21,453 nucleotides of DNA from a virus: IMG/VR virus record IMGVR_UViG_3300032770_000097, positions 1 to 21,453 of that record. One strand, 5' to 3'. The notes beneath the pieces are model-generated. The model searched no databases, was not told where the DNA came from, and saw only the letters and a list, made by a program, of their open reading frames with translations. The position numbers and the translations under genes were made by a program. Of this stretch, positions 11,918-18,181 are shown one piece after another. The first letter of the stretch is position 1, and the number at the start of each line of letters is the position of its first letter.

Positions 11918-12018
11918 TCTTCATAGTTGGTAGTTTTGTTGCTGGATTTATAGTTACATTTTGTGCATGTTCGTGGGCATTAAGGCGTACCGTGTTCAAG
12001 GATAGGGAGCTACGCTGA
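11914..12018 (+). CDS. Single-span membrane mini-protein, 34 aa
   Basis: MIFIVGSFVAGFIVTFCACS then WALRRTVFKDRELR: one hydrophobic segment of about 22 residues followed by a basic tail, predicted N-out/C-in. The start overlaps the terL stop (ATGA), and its own TGA overlaps the next ATG (TGATG). SD GGGAG lies before the start. It is too small for a typical holin but could be a spanin-like or membrane-docking peptide. Its last residues (RELR) and the underlying 11 bases repeat the end of terL. Confidence 0.6.
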   Translation: MIFIVGSFVAGFIVTFCACSWALRRTVFKDRELR

Positions 12019-12284
12019 TGGCATTTATACTGCCGTTCATACCTTTAATTGCGACGGGAATTGGCGCGGCAATTTCTGGTGTTGAGCTAGCTCATCAACC
12101 ATCAGCGCCTACAGCTCCCACTCAGCCCCAGACACAAACAGACCAAGCTAAGGCTCAAGATGCAGCAGCCCTAGCTCAAGCTCAAGCACTACAGAAGCGC
12201 CGTGGACAAGCTTCAACAATACTCACCAGTCCAATAGGAACGACAGGCAGTGCCACAACTCAGGTAGCTACTTTGGGGACATAG
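12018..12284 (+). CDS. Virion-region protein, membrane/Ala-Gln-rich, 88 aa
   Basis: A hydrophobic N-terminus (FILPFIPLIATGIGAAISGV) is followed by a Pro/Gln/Ala-rich flexible stretch and the end motif KRRGQASTILTSPIG with a final T-L-G. The R-R-G-x-A-S-T-I-L-T motif is found in a family of small podovirus proteins next to the portal (recalled, not searched). Possibly a minor head or ejection protein with a membrane-active N-terminus. SD GGGAG, overlap TGATG with the mini-gene before. Confidence 0.75.
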   Translation: MAFILPFIPLIATGIGAAISGVELAHQPSAPTAPTQPQTQTDQAKAQDAAALAQAQALQKRRGQASTILTSPIGTTGSATTQVATLGT

Positions 12285-12635: not shown

Positions 12636-14513
12636 ATGACCTACCCCTCCTTAGCCACGGCTACTCAGTACCTCAGCTCCCGCGAGTACATGGCCTCGCC
12701 TACTGGCCCTCGTGATGATGACCAAAAGGCTAAGGACTGCATGAAATATCTACAAGTCCTGGCCCAGTATAGGCTTCAATGGGAGCCATACATAGATGCC
12801 ATAATTCTTTATGTCAATCACGGACGCCGCTTTGTACAGGACTACAATCTCTGGGATGGTCAGCAAACAGGTCAAGAGGTCTATGATGATAGTGCGATGC
12901 TTGCGCGTAATAAGCTCGTGGATGGTATGGTGGGTTACTTATGCTCCCGCAATCAACCCTGGTTTGCTTTGGAGCTACCCGGAAAATTTAATTTCCCCCG
13001 CTCTAGCGGAATGCGCTCATGGTCAGGTAGAAGAGTAGACGAATACCCGCAAGTACAGAAGTGGTTGCAGGACTCCCAGACAGTAATGTACTCGGCCTTC
13101 AACCGCTCCAACTTCTACGATACTGTACCTGAGTTTATTAGCGATGGTGCTACCTGTGGCACCGCTACTGTCCAAGTAGAAGAAGATGTCTCTAATGCCA
13201 CAATAGTATTCACTGTCCCGCACTTTCGTGAGTGCTTCATAGCCGAGAACCAATGGGGCATGGTTGACACTATCTATCGTGTCTATGCTATGACCCTACG
13301 CCAGCTTGTGCAGAAGTTTGGACTAGATAAAATGAAGGAGGTAGATGATAAGTTTAACCAGGATTATGAGCAAAATATGTACGAACAGCGCATGATCCTC
13401 CATGCCATCTACCCCCGCAAAGACTACAACCCCTCCCGCATGGATGCCAAGTCTAAGCCTTGGGCTTCTGAGTGGATATATCGCAAAGACGGTGTCCTAT
13501 CCTACACTCAAGGTAAAGTAGACACTACCATATCTGGTGATGGTAAGCTCCTATCCGAGGGTGGCTATGACTCCATGCCCACTATCACATGGCGCTGGCG
13601 CAAAAATAATGATGAGGTCTACGGTCGTGGCCCAGCGCATGACGCCTTCGTCTCCATCGCTCAAGCTAACCAGATGGGCCGCACTAATCTTATCACCGCT
13701 CACCAAGCAGCCGAGCCACCCCTTGTAGCTCCAGCAGACTTACGTAACTCCATCCAGCGTGGCCCTAATGGTATCACCTACGTAGAGCGTAATAGGGGAG
13801 CAGATATGAGAACCCTTATCTCTCCTCTCTACACTGGTGTGCAGAATCTCCCCTTCAATATCGAGTACCAAGATCGTGTTACTCGCATCATCAACGAGCA
13901 CTTCCATACTGACGTATTTATGATGATGTCTCAGCTTTCCCAGCAGGGCAACCAGTCTCGCATGGTGATGGAGCAGGTACAGGAGCTTCAAGGGGAGAAG
14001 GCAGCTATCCTAGGCACTCGTGTAGGCAACCTGCAATCAGAAGCCTTCGATCCCCTTATCACCCGCGTATACCACATAGAGTCAATGGCAGGCAGGATAC
14101 CAACTCCTCCTGATATCCTCCTAGAGAGCGTTCATGGCCCAGTAGAGATTCAATACCTTGGCCCCTTAGCACAAGCCCAGACACGTCTCACGAAGGTACG
14201 TGCCATCACTACTTTCCTACAACTTGTAGGCCAAGTAGCTCAGATTGACCCCTCAGTGCTCCACGTGGTCAATAGCTACAACACCGTGAAAGAGCTTGCC
14301 GATGCAGTTAACGTACCCGTAGAGTGCCTAAACGATCCCAAGACTTACCAGATGATCCTTCAAAGCCTACAAAAGATAGCCCAACAGGATCGTACTGCTG
14401 ACAACTTACCCAAGGTAGCCAGGGCAGCAGCAAGCCTCAGCAAAGCTCCTGAAGCTGGCAGTTTGGTACAGCAACTCATGGATGGTGGCGAAGGTGGAGG
14501 TACTGTGCAATGA
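12636..14513 (+). CDS. Portal / head-tail connector protein (T7 gp8-like), 625 aa
   Basis: Length, position after terL, and sequence features match the podovirus head-to-tail connector family (Head-tail_con): an N-terminal RLQWEPYIDAIILYVNHGRR helix, the GMVGYLCSRNQPWFAL block, a core with RECFIAENQWGMVDTIYRVY, the GRGPAHDAFVSIAQANQMGR segment, and a C-terminal long helix (RLTKVRAITTFLQLVGQVAQ). Twelve copies form the ring through which DNA enters and leaves. The SD is weak, so translation coupling with the preceding small genes is likely. Its stop overlaps the next ATG. Confidence 0.92.
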   Translation: MTYPSLATATQYLSSREYMASPTGPRDDDQKAKDCMKYLQVLAQYRLQWEPYIDAIILYVNHGRRFVQDYNLWDGQQTGQEVYDDSAMLARNKLVDGMVGYLCSRNQPWFALELPGKFNFPRSSGMRSWSGRRVDEYPQVQKWLQDSQTVMYSAFNRSNFYDTVPEFISDGATCGTATVQVEEDVSNATIVFTVPHFRECFIAENQWGMVDTIYRVYAMTLRQLVQKFGLDKMKEVDDKFNQDYEQNMYEQRMILHAIYPRKDYNPSRMDAKSKPWASEWIYRKDGVLSYTQGKVDTTISGDGKLLSEGGYDSMPTITWRWRKNNDEVYGRGPAHDAFVSIAQANQMGRTNLITAHQAAEPPLVAPADLRNSIQRGPNGITYVERNRGADMRTLISPLYTGVQNLPFNIEYQDRVTRIINEHFHTDVFMMMSQLSQQGNQSRMVMEQVQELQGEKAAILGTRVGNLQSEAFDPLITRVYHIESMAGRIPTPPDILLESVHGPVEIQYLGPLAQAQTRLTKVRAITTFLQLVGQVAQIDPSVLHVVNSYNTVKELADAVNVPVECLNDPKTYQMILQSLQKIAQQDRTADNLPKVARAAASLSKAPEAGSLVQQLMDGGEGGGTVQ

Positions 14514-14644
14514 CTCAGTTTAAGTGGTATAGAAAATTATTGGGTGGTAAATGGTGTTGGATGAGAAGTCTAACAAACTTTACCGGATATAAGTGGATTA
14601 GGGTTTGTGATACTGCTAGTTACTGGGATGAGAACTGGCAATGA
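14510..14644 (+). CDS. Trp-rich mini-protein, 44 aa
   Basis: MTQFKWYRKLLGGKWCWMRS continues with a second aromatic repeat (YKWIRV, SYWDENW). Six Trp in 44 residues, in a W-Y-R-x-L-x-G-G-K-W pattern that I associate with tiny proteins of other podoviruses (from memory). SD GGAGG 9 bases upstream. ATGA overlaps on both sides bind it to the portal and the Bbp19-like gene. Probably a small beta sheet; role unknown. Confidence 0.7.
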   Translation: MTQFKWYRKLLGGKWCWMRSLTNFTGYKWIRVCDTASYWDENWQ

Positions 14645-14889
14645 GCACTCCTCCACTTACACCCCAGCAGGAGATGTTACAGCGTTATCGTAACGTCTTT
14701 GGTAGCTCAGAAGGTCGTATAGTCCTTGGTGACATTCTAACAAAAGGTCACTATGGTGTAACCCTTGATCCAGATAACCCTGTTATGGTAGCTGAATATA
14801 ACTTTGCTCTAGTAATAGCTACACTATCTGGGCATCTTGACCAACTCTACTCACAACTCGGTATAGCCGAACACTCTAACCCCACCTAG
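14641..14889 (+). CDS. Bbp19-like phage protein, 82 aa
   Basis: The segment MLQRYRNVFGSSEGRIVLGD followed by I-L-x-x-G-H-Y matches the Y-R-x-V-F-x-S-x-x-G-R-x-V-L-x-D pattern of the Bbp19-like domain, named for Bordetella phage BPP-1. The C-terminal helix (EYNFALVIATLSGHLDQLY) completes the family. These proteins are encoded between portal and scaffold in BPP-1-like genomes; the exact role is not settled. Start ATG overlaps the previous stop. Confidence 0.75.
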   Translation: MSTPPLTPQQEMLQRYRNVFGSSEGRIVLGDILTKGHYGVTLDPDNPVMVAEYNFALVIATLSGHLDQLYSQLGIAEHSNPT

Positions 14890-14916: not shown

Positions 14917-15762
14917 ATGGGCGGAACAGCACCGTACTACGATAACCAGAAGTGGGGCGGCCCGAATGGCCTTCGGCTCCCACAAGAAGTATTCCCAGCG
15001 ACAATGGCTGTGGTCAAAGAAACCGACATCAATGTTGGCGGAGCTGGCACAACCAACACCATCACCATTGATCCAAGCCAAACACTGTCTAGCTACTACA
15101 CCCTAACCAACGCTGGCTCAGGCGCTACCACAGTCACCTTTCCAGTCCTCCACAATGGCTTTGTGTTCACCGTGTATAACAACAGCGGCCAAAGCTCTAC
15201 ATGGAAGGTTAGTGGTAAGACTGGCGTAACTGTAGCTAATGGCTATAAGGCAGTCCTACTGTTCGACAAGGTAGCTGGTGACATTGTACGGGTTACTGGT
15301 GACTTCAGTGGTTCTGGCCCTAGCTCTAGTGGCCCTGCTCCAGTGGTGTCCAGTGCAGCTACACTAACATTGACCAGTGCTAACGCTGGTGCCACAATTC
15401 TTCTAGCCCGTGCCGCTGGTACAGTTGTCACATTGCCTGCTGCAACTGGTTCAGGTACAAAATACAAGTTTGTGGTGTCTGTTACTGTCACAAGCAATAA
15501 AGATGCTATACTTGCGGCTAGTAGTAGTGACTTTATCAATGGCATTGCCATTGGCGAAAACAGCAACACACCATTGTCATTTGCTTCTGCTGCGGCCACT
15601 AACCACTCTATCCAAATGCCGTTTGCTGGTACACAACCAAGTGGCGGGTTTATTGGTGATTACTTTGAGTTTCAGGACATAGCAGCAAACTTGTGGCAGT
15701 GTAATGGTATGTACCAAGCTGGTACTACACCGACTACGCCATTTAGTTCGGCTACGTCGTAA
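14917..15762 (+). CDS. Structural decoration/fibre protein, 281 aa
   Basis: Starts MGGTAPYYDNQKWGGPNGLR after an AAGGA SD. It has two beta-rich domains. The first (about 40-130) has SSYYTLTNAGSGATTVTFP and GFVFTVYNNSGQSS...DIVRVTGD. A Ser/Gly/Pro linker (FSGSGPSSSGPAPVVSSA) follows, then a second domain (LTLTSANAGATILLARAAGT...VVTLPAATGSGTKYKFVV). Both patterns are frequent in surface or decoration proteins of phages. It is encoded before the scaffold, so a head-surface fibre or cement role is more likely than tail. Gene identity as structural is fairly firm, the exact role is not. Confidence 0.7.
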   Translation: MGGTAPYYDNQKWGGPNGLRLPQEVFPATMAVVKETDINVGGAGTTNTITIDPSQTLSSYYTLTNAGSGATTVTFPVLHNGFVFTVYNNSGQSSTWKVSGKTGVTVANGYKAVLLFDKVAGDIVRVTGDFSGSGPSSSGPAPVVSSAATLTLTSANAGATILLARAAGTVVTLPAATGSGTKYKFVVSVTVTSNKDAILAASSSDFINGIAIGENSNTPLSFASAAATNHSIQMPFAGTQPSGGFIGDYFEFQDIAANLWQCNGMYQAGTTPTTPFSSATS

Positions 15763-15849: not shown

Positions 15850-16092
15850 ATGCCTGGTGGCAAGGGCGGTAACAATAACAAGGGTAGTGGTGGTGGTAGG
15901 GCAAGGAGCCTTGGTGCAGCGGCAGGCCCAGCCAAACCCAACGGAGCTATCCTTGACGATACCGCCGAAGTGCTCCTTCAACAGAAGCAGCGTTTCAAGG
16001 CTTGGGCTAAGGGCTACCGTGACTCTAAGCTCAAGGAGAACGCTTGGACTAAGATGTATCAAAATTCACCAAACCCCATCAAGGGTAACTAG
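15850..16092 (+). CDS. Small Gly-rich protein with W-x-K-M-Y tail, 80 aa
   Basis: Start 15850 follows AGAAGGAG, an optimal SD. The N-terminus is Gly/Asn-rich and flexible (MPGGKGGNNNKGSGGGRARS), the C-terminal half is helical (VLLQQKQRFKAWAKGYRDSK) and ends NAWTKMYQNSPNPIKGN. The A-W-T-K-M-Y-Q-N string resembles the extreme C-terminus of the scaffold two genes downstream (A-W-M-N-M-Y-K-N). Likely an assembly or internal head protein; inference from this shared tail and position. Confidence 0.7.
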   Translation: MPGGKGGNNNKGSGGGRARSLGAAAGPAKPNGAILDDTAEVLLQQKQRFKAWAKGYRDSKLKENAWTKMYQNSPNPIKGN

Positions 16093-16094
16093 CT

Positions 16095-16304
16095 ATGAAC
16101 TATCCAATGTCAACAATGCCTAAGAGTGATGCTGAGTGGGAGGCTGAGTGTGATGCTCGGACTCTTGCCGAAGCTGAAAAGATACGCGGTGATGAGGGAC
16201 GTTTGGGCAGAGCACAAGAGGCTGCTGAACGTCTTGCTAAAGAAGCCCAAGAACACGCGGATAACTTAGCTCATGTTGTTGGGTGGATTAAGATGTACAA
16301 GTAG
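16095..16304 (+). CDS. Coiled-coil protein with W-I-K-M-Y-K tail, 69 aa
   Basis: MNYPMSTMPKSDAEWEAECD is followed by a long charged helix (RTLAEAEKIRGDEGRLGRAQ) and ends VVGWIKMYK. The P-K-S-D-A-E-W...D-A-R-T-L-A-E-A-E pattern resembles a small family in other phages of Gram-negative hosts (recalled). The start at 16095 has AAGGG about 9 bases upstream; internal ATGs at 16107 and 16116 are possible. The last six residues share the W-x-K-M-Y-K tail of its neighbours. Confidence 0.7.
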   Translation: MNYPMSTMPKSDAEWEAECDARTLAEAEKIRGDEGRLGRAQEAAERLAKEAQEHADNLAHVVGWIKMYK

Positions 16305-16350
16305 TTTACTTTAACCTAATCAATGGCTACGGCCAAAGTGAGAGGATACC

Positions 16351-17094
16351 ATGCCTGAAGCAGCAGTAGTTGAACCGGTTGTAGAACCAGTAACGCCTCC
16401 CGCTGATCCACCATCTCTAGGATGGCGCGCTGGCTTACCTGACGACCTTAAACAGAACACCGACCTTGCTAACTACAAGACAGTAGGTGACTTCACTAAG
16501 GATGCCCTGTCTTGGAAAGGTAAGGTAAGTGAACTAGAGGGGAAGCTGGGTGAGTCAATACCCAAACTGCCTGATGATGCAACAGATGAGGATCGTAATA
16601 CCTACTATGATGCTTTAGGTAGACCAAAAACTCCTAATGACTATGTTCTAGAGGGTGAGGACAAGAACGCTCCCGAGTTCAATGCTGAAGTGCGAAAGCT
16701 GTTACATGATACAGGACAAACACCACAACAGGCATTAGCACTTAATAAGTGGTGGAACAAGTTCTTTGATGGTATGGTTAAGCACCAACAGGGACTTGCT
16801 CAAGCCGAATATGATGCAGCAGCACAGAAGCTTAAGAGCGAGCTAGGCGACAAGTACGATACCAACGTAGAACTGGCCAAGAGACTATGGAAGCAACACG
16901 GAGATGGAGAGTTCGATATAGCCTTTGCGAATAGCCCATCACGCTTTGGGACTATTCGACTCCTTCTCAAGCTAGCTTCCTTGACCGGAGAGGATACTTC
17001 TCCACAGGGGCAACATTCAGGTAGTGCTAAGGAGCTAGATTCCACAGCAGCTTGGATGAATATGTATAAGAACCCTGTAGGTGGTAAGAAGTAA
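16351..17094 (+). CDS. Capsid scaffolding protein, 247 aa
   Basis: Acidic, Pro-rich N-terminus (EPVVEPVTPPADPPSLGWRA), a middle with the GRPKTPNDYVLEG segment common in podovirus scaffolds, and a long helical C-terminal half (LAQAEYDAAAQKLKSELGDK). It ends AWMNMYKNPVGGKK, a short basic tail of the kind that docks onto the coat protein. It is encoded directly before the major capsid protein, as expected for a scaffold that shapes the prohead and leaves before packaging. SD GAGAGGA. Confidence 0.85.
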   Translation: MPEAAVVEPVVEPVTPPADPPSLGWRAGLPDDLKQNTDLANYKTVGDFTKDALSWKGKVSELEGKLGESIPKLPDDATDEDRNTYYDALGRPKTPNDYVLEGEDKNAPEFNAEVRKLLHDTGQTPQQALALNKWWNKFFDGMVKHQQGLAQAEYDAAAQKLKSELGDKYDTNVELAKRLWKQHGDGEFDIAFANSPSRFGTIRLLLKLASLTGEDTSPQGQHSGSAKELDSTAAWMNMYKNPVGGKK

Positions 17095-17125: not shown

Positions 17126-18181
17126 ATGGCCACAGATGTATCACAACTGGGGTATACAACCCTTCCAGATGTGATTAACAACTATTCTACGTCAGATGCC
17201 CGTGCTGTGTTTGTCATGGCAGCGCGTGTACTTGATCGTCAATGTCCACTCATTAGGTATCTGCCTATGGAACCATCCAACCAGATACTTAGCAACATAG
17301 CGATTCGTACCGATTCACTACCCATCCCTGGTACACGTCGCTTTAACACAGGTGTCCAGCCTACTGCTGCCAAGAACACCCAGATTAGTGACCCAATGGC
17401 TCTGTTCGAGGCATATAGTGAAGTTGACAAGGAACTGTACCGCATCCAGAACAACCCTGATATGTGGCGTATGGATCAAGACCTTAACCACGTAGAGGGG
17501 TTCAAACAGCTTCTTGAGTCTATCTTGTTCTATGGCAACATGGCTCAAGACCCCGGCACCTTCAACGGCCTTGCTACCCGATTCAATAACCTTGAATCCT
17601 ACCCGAACGGCGACCAAAGCTGGTTGCCTAACGTGTGGAATGGTGGTCAAACTACTGGCTCTTGCACCAGTGCCTATTTCCTCGAACTAGGCAAGATGAA
17701 GGTTTATGGCATCTACCCACCTAACACTCCCGGTGGCCTCAACATCGAGAACCTTGGGGAGATGACCAAGGAGCTTGCTGCTGGCACAGGTGGTGGCCCT
17801 TCTCTTAACTACTTGATGCAGGTTCTTCGTACCCACATGACCTGGCGCATTGGTATCCAGATCAATGATGAACGCTGCGTCCAGCGCATTGCCAACATCA
17901 ACCCCACAGGCTTCAGTGGGCCTAACGGCTTCAACGAGGACATCTTTATCGAAGCTAAGAACCAACTCCCCGGCTCGGGTGAAGCTCCCGGTACTGTTCT
18001 GCTTATGAATCGTCAACTCAAGACTCAGGTTGACATTCGTGCAGTCAGTCAGAAGCTCAACGCTTACACCTTCTTTAGTGCCAATGAGGTTGATGTGTTT
18101 GGCCGCAGTGTCACTAAGTTCCAGAACATTCCAATCTTGATGACTGAGAAGATTCTCAACACCGAGACGGTCGTCAGCTAA
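17126..18181 (+). CDS. Major capsid protein, HK97 fold, epsilon15 gp7/Bbp17 type, 351 aa
   Basis: Shows the family features: N-terminal LGYTTLPDVINNYSTSDARA, then RQCPLIRYLPMEPSNQ, a GTRRFNTGVQPTAAKN loop and the E-loop region, a central VYGIYPPNTPGGLNIENLG segment, and the P-domain end GRSVTKFQNIPILMTEKIL. Length matches epsilon15/BPP-1 coat proteins. Hundreds of copies form the icosahedral head. SD AGAGGA 7 bases before the ATG. Its codons are the most C-ending in the window, consistent with high expression (impression, not counted). Confidence 0.92.
   Translation: MATDVSQLGYTTLPDVINNYSTSDARAVFVMAARVLDRQCPLIRYLPMEPSNQILSNIAIRTDSLPIPGTRRFNTGVQPTAAKNTQISDPMALFEAYSEVDKELYRIQNNPDMWRMDQDLNHVEGFKQLLESILFYGNMAQDPGTFNGLATRFNNLESYPNGDQSWLPNVWNGGQTTGSCTSAYFLELGKMKVYGIYPPNTPGGLNIENLGEMTKELAAGTGGGPSLNYLMQVLRTHMTWRIGIQINDERCVQRIANINPTGFSGPNGFNEDIFIEAKNQLPGSGEAPGTVLLMNRQLKTQVDIRAVSQKLNAYTFFSANEVDVFGRSVTKFQNIPILMTEKILNTETVVS

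Follow-up and report, generated by a model that had tools for sequence, protein, structure and literature searches.

The stretch of DNA that we analyzed, referred to as the window herein, is 21,453 nt long and derives from an uncultured phage contig (IMG/VR record). It carries a head module of the BPP-1/epsilon15 type, consisting of a terminase, a portal, a weakly matching Bbp19-like protein, two small proteins, a scaffold candidate, and a GP7-type coat protein (Table 1). Both the coat type and the gene order (portal, Bbp19-like protein, scaffold, coat) place the window in this class, and 8cjz, 3j4u, and 3j40 are solved relatives of its coat. Our search of bacterial genome contigs found no relatives of the GP7 coat. 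The genes encoding the 80-aa, 69-aa, and 247-aa proteins are separate and do not overlap. A 281-aa protein of the window resembles a 130-aa protein that fills the same slot in relatives, with an extra second domain, and the slot between it and the scaffold varies in relatives, where we observed other ORFs of 150-230 aa and, in L017, an endonuclease-like ORF. Upstream of the portal, a small protein (phrog_831) ends in another conserved C-terminal tail, R-R-G-x-A-S-T-x-L-T-S-P-x-G...T-L-G. Similar ends (T-[IL]-L-T-[GS]...L-G) occur in the matching slot of phiV10, BPP-1, and pelagiphages, once on two nearby genes.

Table 1. Coordinates of the head-module features of the window and of selected features in related loci (L numbers).
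Feature	Location	Strand	Remarks
Small protein upstream of portal	12018-12284		phrog_831
Portal	12636-14513		PF12236
Bbp19-like protein, weak	14641-14889		PF25181, E = 0.002, below its cut-off
281-aa protein	14917-15762
80-aa small basic protein (family B)	15850..16092	+	orthologs near scaffold in about 30 phage loci
Tail AWTKMYQN of 80-aa protein	16042..16065	+	residues 65-72
69-aa small protein (family C)	16095..16304	+	acidic; body W-x-A-E-x-D-A-R-T-L-A-E-A-E-x-I...
Tail WIKMYK of 69-aa protein	16284..16301	+	residues 64-69, C-terminal end
Scaffold candidate, 247 aa	16351..17094	+	phrog_3742 / phrog_458 family; gene adjoins coat gene, upstream
Tail AWMNMYKN of scaffold candidate	17050..17073	+	residues 234-241 of 247 aa; six residues after
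Major coat protein (GP7)	17126..18181	+	PF20911, E = 1e-58; BPP-1/epsilon15 type; proposed docking surface for tail
Tails resembling that of the phrog_831 protein	L172 3357-3563; L173 2853-3260; L176 1979-2236 and 2681-2893		phiV10 p06 (L172); Bbp22 (L173)
Further short proteins near scaffold with scaffold-type tail	L161 3771-3971; L169 1623-1787; L192 3209-3388		YSPEFEAKFG (L161); YDPNFEEQYG (L169); EKLYPDQ (L192)
epsilon15 gp10	L184 6982-7317		PDB 3j40_N

The original prediction was that three consecutive proteins with unrelated bodies, the scaffold among them, share a tail of the W-x-x-M-Y type. All three tails are in frame in the translations, although eight residues follow AWTKMYQN in the 80-aa protein and not nine as first counted. 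The bodies indeed proved unrelated, as both BLASTP and profile-profile comparison align the tail alone. For the 80-aa protein against the scaffold, the best BLASTP match was the 8-residue tail and nothing else, the 69-aa protein matched the scaffold through its tail end alone, and when the 80-aa and scaffold family profiles were compared, nothing but the tail aligned (P = 6e-5). Since the tail alone aligns, descent of the entire proteins from a common ancestor is ruled out. When the C-terminal 20 residues of 219 window ORFs were compared with the scaffold tail, the two neighbors ranked at the top with scores of 36 and 30, followed by 26, and letter-shuffle tests of their tails gave p = 0.0025 and 0.0005.

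Based on its position, predicted helical fold, and PHROG similarity, we infer that the 247-aa protein is the scaffold. Its gene lies directly 5′ of the coat gene, and the protein has the variable linker and conserved C-terminal end that would be expected of a scaffold. The AF2 model is mostly helical, with a 59-residue helix and a C-terminus of low confidence from residue 220 onward. Neither a PDB sequence search nor a fold search (Foldseek) returned a solved relative. While phrog_3742 carries no function, one relative weakly matches phrog_19777, "head scaffolding protein" (E = 0.009), and PHROG 458 labels the family "protease".

To follow the tail across relatives, we searched IMG/VR with the coat and the scaffold, which yielded 64 distinct scaffold sequences (the window's included, a few partial). 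In the C-terminal region of these proteins the linker holds about 1.1-1.9 bits per column and the tail 2.6-3.7 bits at most positions, a pattern that would be expected of a flexibly tethered, short binding peptide. The tail types are WMNMYKN, F-D-Y-S-K-S-P-K-P-P, Y-D-K-S-P-x-P-P-K, Y-P-K-S-N-M-P-P-A-K, Y-D-K-S-N-M-P-P-A-K, and Y-D-L-S-K-F-N-L-P-P-A-K. The letters differ from phage to phage, and the small neighbors usually carry their own phage's version, for instance YDKSPxPPK, YPKSNMPPAK, NMYPNTK, or YPSM. Most orthologs lack W-x-x-M-Y itself and usually have their own scaffold's tail in its place, which leaves the proposal of a shared tail standing; we rejected the literal W-x-x-M-Y as the defining motif, as it is merely one clade's version. 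Coats of close relatives share 84-89% identity with the window's coat, yet the scaffold tail types vary, and window-like coats of 84-88% identity accompany both WMNMY and FDYSKSP tails. Judging from such similar coats with differing scaffold tails, tails of more than one type may fit a single site. The T7-like scaffolds (VP2, pelagiphages) have another C-terminal motif, which by eye is found on no listed neighbor.

Members of the 80-aa family (family B) consist of a disordered, G/S/K-rich N-terminus, a conserved A-x-L-x-D-D...F-x-x-W helix, and the C-terminal tail. For the window's protein, AF2 predicted a helix at residues 39-60 and a short turn within the tail at residues 65-69, the remainder being of low confidence (pLDDT 62); a short turn was also modeled at the scaffold tail (residues 232-236), with low confidence in both proteins. 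The 80-aa protein holds 14 K+R against 5 D+E and, as cargo, could contact packaged DNA. About half of the 64 scaffold loci have an ortholog upstream of the scaffold, in most cases with its own phage's tail type, and the tail Tyr is almost invariant in the family. For instance, the scaffold and small protein tails read FIAYDKSPAPPAKR and MIFYDKSPAPPKK in L023, SYDKSPKPPQKR and NYDKSPKPKKRG in L014, and NPYPKSNMPPAK and TPYPKSDMPPAK in L084. The two tail types disagree in L002/L010, L013, L017, L032, L099, and G010; on the evidence of these six mismatched relatives, exact matching appears not to be obligatory. In G006 and G008 the scaffold tail is present and neither small gene was found.

The 69-aa family (family C) is present in about 80 viral contigs, and no member was found in cultured phage records. 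The window's protein has no Pfam match, and the best PHROG match of an ortholog is weak (E = 0.097). Family C ends in WIKMYK in the window, in EYSNSPKPPKKN in L048, and in KYDKSEMPPAKE in L144/L145, each resembling the scaffold of the same phage. Similarly, the end STNMYPNTKAEK in L165 accompanies the scaffold tail KNMYPNTKD, SYPSHKKE is paired with TYPSMEGKT in L236, and TYNKSPKEG is paired with DYSKSPAP in L276. That one and the same family C body bears differing tails, each fitting the local scaffold, argues more strongly than any other single observation for selection of the tail to match. L161 and L169 each encode a third tagged small protein, and some phages thus hold two or three of them. 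The family C proteins of L240, L242, L244, L248, L261, and L272 carry another conserved tail at their C-termini, N-V-F-x-[KR]-[VI]. Since a neighbor with a similar end was observed in L246 only (103 aa, ..TVFERLDKREQS), we do not claim a siphovirus-like extension through these NVFxKV/RI ends.

We then compared tails within and between phages, using loci dereplicated at 90% scaffold identity and body segments as the control. The family B tail matched the scaffold of the same phage better than mismatched scaffolds (35.3 versus 28.4, n = 32, p = 2e-5, a value that overstates independence because one tail type dominates and the phages are related). The same held for family C (38.1 versus 17.4, n = 9, p = 1e-5) and for the gp10/Bbp20 family described below (24.6 versus 17.9, n = 8, p = 0.003), and the control body segments gave small or no differences. 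When family C was thinned by scaffold identity, p was 1e-4 below 40% (n = 10) and 0.003 below 30% (n = 7). In a partly independent test, loci were fetched by the C protein and their scaffolds found by body only; in 11 of the 13 loci no other tail matched better than that of the scaffold, and five of the 13 are phages already used in the comparison within and between phages. There was no match in one family C locus (L274), where the scaffold ranked 16th of 36. Among 12 larger phage contigs with 185-501 ORFs each, the best genome-wide tail match was a small scaffold neighbor in seven, and in G011 it lay about 3.4 kb away from the scaffold. Lastly, we searched the 1,637 distinct ORFs of at least 50 aa from the window and its relatives. 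W..MY in the last 18 residues occurs in six of them and a Y-x-[KNQ]-S tail in 78, and every one of these ORFs is a member of the scaffold, 80-aa, or 69-aa family.

Cultured phages carry the same kind of pairing in another family, that of epsilon15 gp10 and BPP-1 Bbp20. The scaffold-position protein and the Bbp20/gp10 family member share SAAEVLYGK and SAAETLYGN in phiV10, RRLYAASNM and QRLYGASSM in BPP-1, and AAKLYDKS and AAKFYANT in BcepC6B. In epsilon15, gp6 ends in ISAFYPKK and gp10 in LKDAFYPDG, and gp10 is the top match among 88 ORFs. In ctQRb9, Jess A, Vibrio 1.021.A, and Olaya the match is weak, with a -[LM]Y- end on both proteins. A tblastn search of phage records with Bbp20 returned members of its own family and no others, and the window's small proteins have no PHROGs or Pfam match. 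Proteomics putatively detected gp10 in virions, and it was modeled as an outer staple (PMC9207676). Later re-modeling reassigned the staple density to a protein of 130 aa (PMC9207676). The epsilon15 record lists this protein as gp8 and notes its similarity to the Bbp16 cementing protein; the counterpart in phiV10 matches solved cement proteins. A 2025 paper still calls gp10 an inner-surface staple (PMC12391199), and the public record of gp10 still labels it major coat protein, citing the 3j40 model. Accounts of where gp10, a reported virion protein, sits thus differ, and its tail would put it alongside the scaffold. Its reported presence in virions is the sole experimental hint that small proteins with such a tail reach the particle.

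Taken together, these comparisons make it likely that the scaffold docks on the prohead lattice through this tail and that small proteins mimic the peptide and are built in. The tail would be a short linear motif on a flexible linker, approximating hydrophobic-x-(x)-Tyr with small, Lys, and Pro residues after it, by which the scaffold would hold on to the assembling head, most probably at the inner face of the coat lattice and perhaps at the portal too. The two small late proteins, encoded directly upstream of the scaffold, would occupy the scaffold tail's site and be built into the prohead beside it, so that the tail would act as a natural cargo label while the bodies perform the cargo's job. 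A shared docking peptide had been predicted from the window, and that proposal now has good comparative support: the tail is a conserved island, is confined to few proteins, and mostly changes in step. Its coat binding and the prohead or virion location of the small proteins are what we infer. Docking by the scaffold tail is argued by analogy with herpes simplex virus (HSV), whose scaffold proteins attach to the major capsid protein by their 25 C-terminal residues, and with P22, in which the C-terminal hook of the scaffold binds the coat N-arm and the portal (PMC12005531). By the same analogy, the coat would be the tail's partner. The small proteins would end up inside the head. More broadly, small unrelated proteins probably ride into the growing shell on a shared peptide in a wide group of short-tailed-type phages. 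We lean slightly toward a general cargo code in GP7-coat phages and distant phages with the same scaffold family, whereby unrelated small families (80-aa family B, 69-aa family C, gp10/Bbp20, and the short proteins in L161, L169, and ctQRb9) would have acquired the docking tail, track its changes, and co-assemble.

Docking on the portal or terminase instead of the coat would recruit the small proteins to the packaging vertex. The small genes are located between the portal and coat genes, the P22 hook touches the portal too (PMC12005531), and the tail type need not follow the coat, given the two tail types that accompany coats of 84-88% identity. We nevertheless consider this unlikely, since within the C-terminal end conservation is highest in the tail and the portal is not singled out. 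Scaffolds, moreover, have to meet the coat lattice in large numbers, and we judge the coat the likelier partner. The tail could also be a removal signal, through which a protease or other clearing factor strips the scaffold and accessory proteins from the maturing head. On this account the scaffold and small proteins would have to exit together, and the "protease" label of PHROG 458 would fit, but the usual C-degrons are unlike the Pro/Lys/Gly runs that end these tails. The presence of epsilon15 gp10, which bears such a tail, in reported finished virions (PMC9207676) makes a removal signal all the more improbable.

Recombination between adjoining late genes might have copied their 3′ ends, leaving the peptide as a functionless evolutionary leftover. 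Codon identity at matched tail residues was 122 of 256, compared with 106 ± 7 expected if independent, and four of five matched residues in the window's own 80-aa pair have identical codons; this is the slight excess that copying would predict. Most matched residues nevertheless use different codons, and this near independence rules out copied DNA or gene conversion as the sole cause and implies that the peptide, not the DNA, was kept and selected. With the match also persisting over distant phages and several protein families, and with a nearly invariant tail Tyr in the 80-aa family, we see very little prospect of a functionless leftover. Least probable is chance convergence of short Lys/Pro-rich C-termini. 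While the motif is short and some pairs are unmatched, observed tail match scores were 25-38 versus 14-18 for letter-shuffled tails, no ORF outside the three families carried the motifs, and permutation p-values reached 1e-5; chance resemblance as such is ruled out by the shuffles, the permutations, and the 1,637-ORF search.

If the docking reading is true, a large phage group uses the scaffold tail as a natural and exchangeable cargo label, which, as far as we found, is apparently the first to work through independent genes that mimic the scaffold's end. Packaged proteins would then be predictable from sequence alone, epsilon15 gp10 and BPP-1 Bbp20 would gain a testable interior role, and the tail would point to the scaffold-coat interface of the GP7 capsid family and supply short peptides with which proteins could be loaded into phage-derived particles. 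A true cargo code would, in addition, give a place inside the head to gp10, whose modeled outer position was judged wrong. In the open literature, with subscription papers outside our scope, we found no earlier description of a tail common to a scaffold and separate phage proteins.

Several known systems resemble parts of this arrangement. The epsilon15 gp10 and BPP-1 Bbp20 proteins accompany the same coat family, and the scaffold's tail type occurs on them in phiV10, BPP-1, BcepC6B, and epsilon15, whereas their bodies differ from those of the window's small proteins. P22 scaffold fusions load cargo and are used by engineers. The P22 hook is a folded helix-turn-helix, whereas our tail is a short peptide and is carried by natural proteins. 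The protease and scaffold genes of herpesviruses (UL26/UL26.5) and lambda (C/Nu3) are nested in frame, hence their products have common ends. As we propose here, a second protein reaches the prohead by ending as the scaffold does, but in our phages the genes are separate, the bodies are unrelated, and each has its own copy of the tail. The closest known system is the capsid-targeting sequence of T4, which lies at the N-terminus of the internal protein. This conserved sequence leads diverse small proteins (IPI-III) into the prohead scaffold core (PMC3012670). The likeness lies in one short, conserved peptide being attached to small proteins that are otherwise diverse. In contrast to the T4 sequence, the tag described here is C-terminal, equals the scaffold's own tail, changes type with the scaffold, and occurs in phages that are not T4-like, so that it is analogous to the T4-type targeting sequences and not a member of them.
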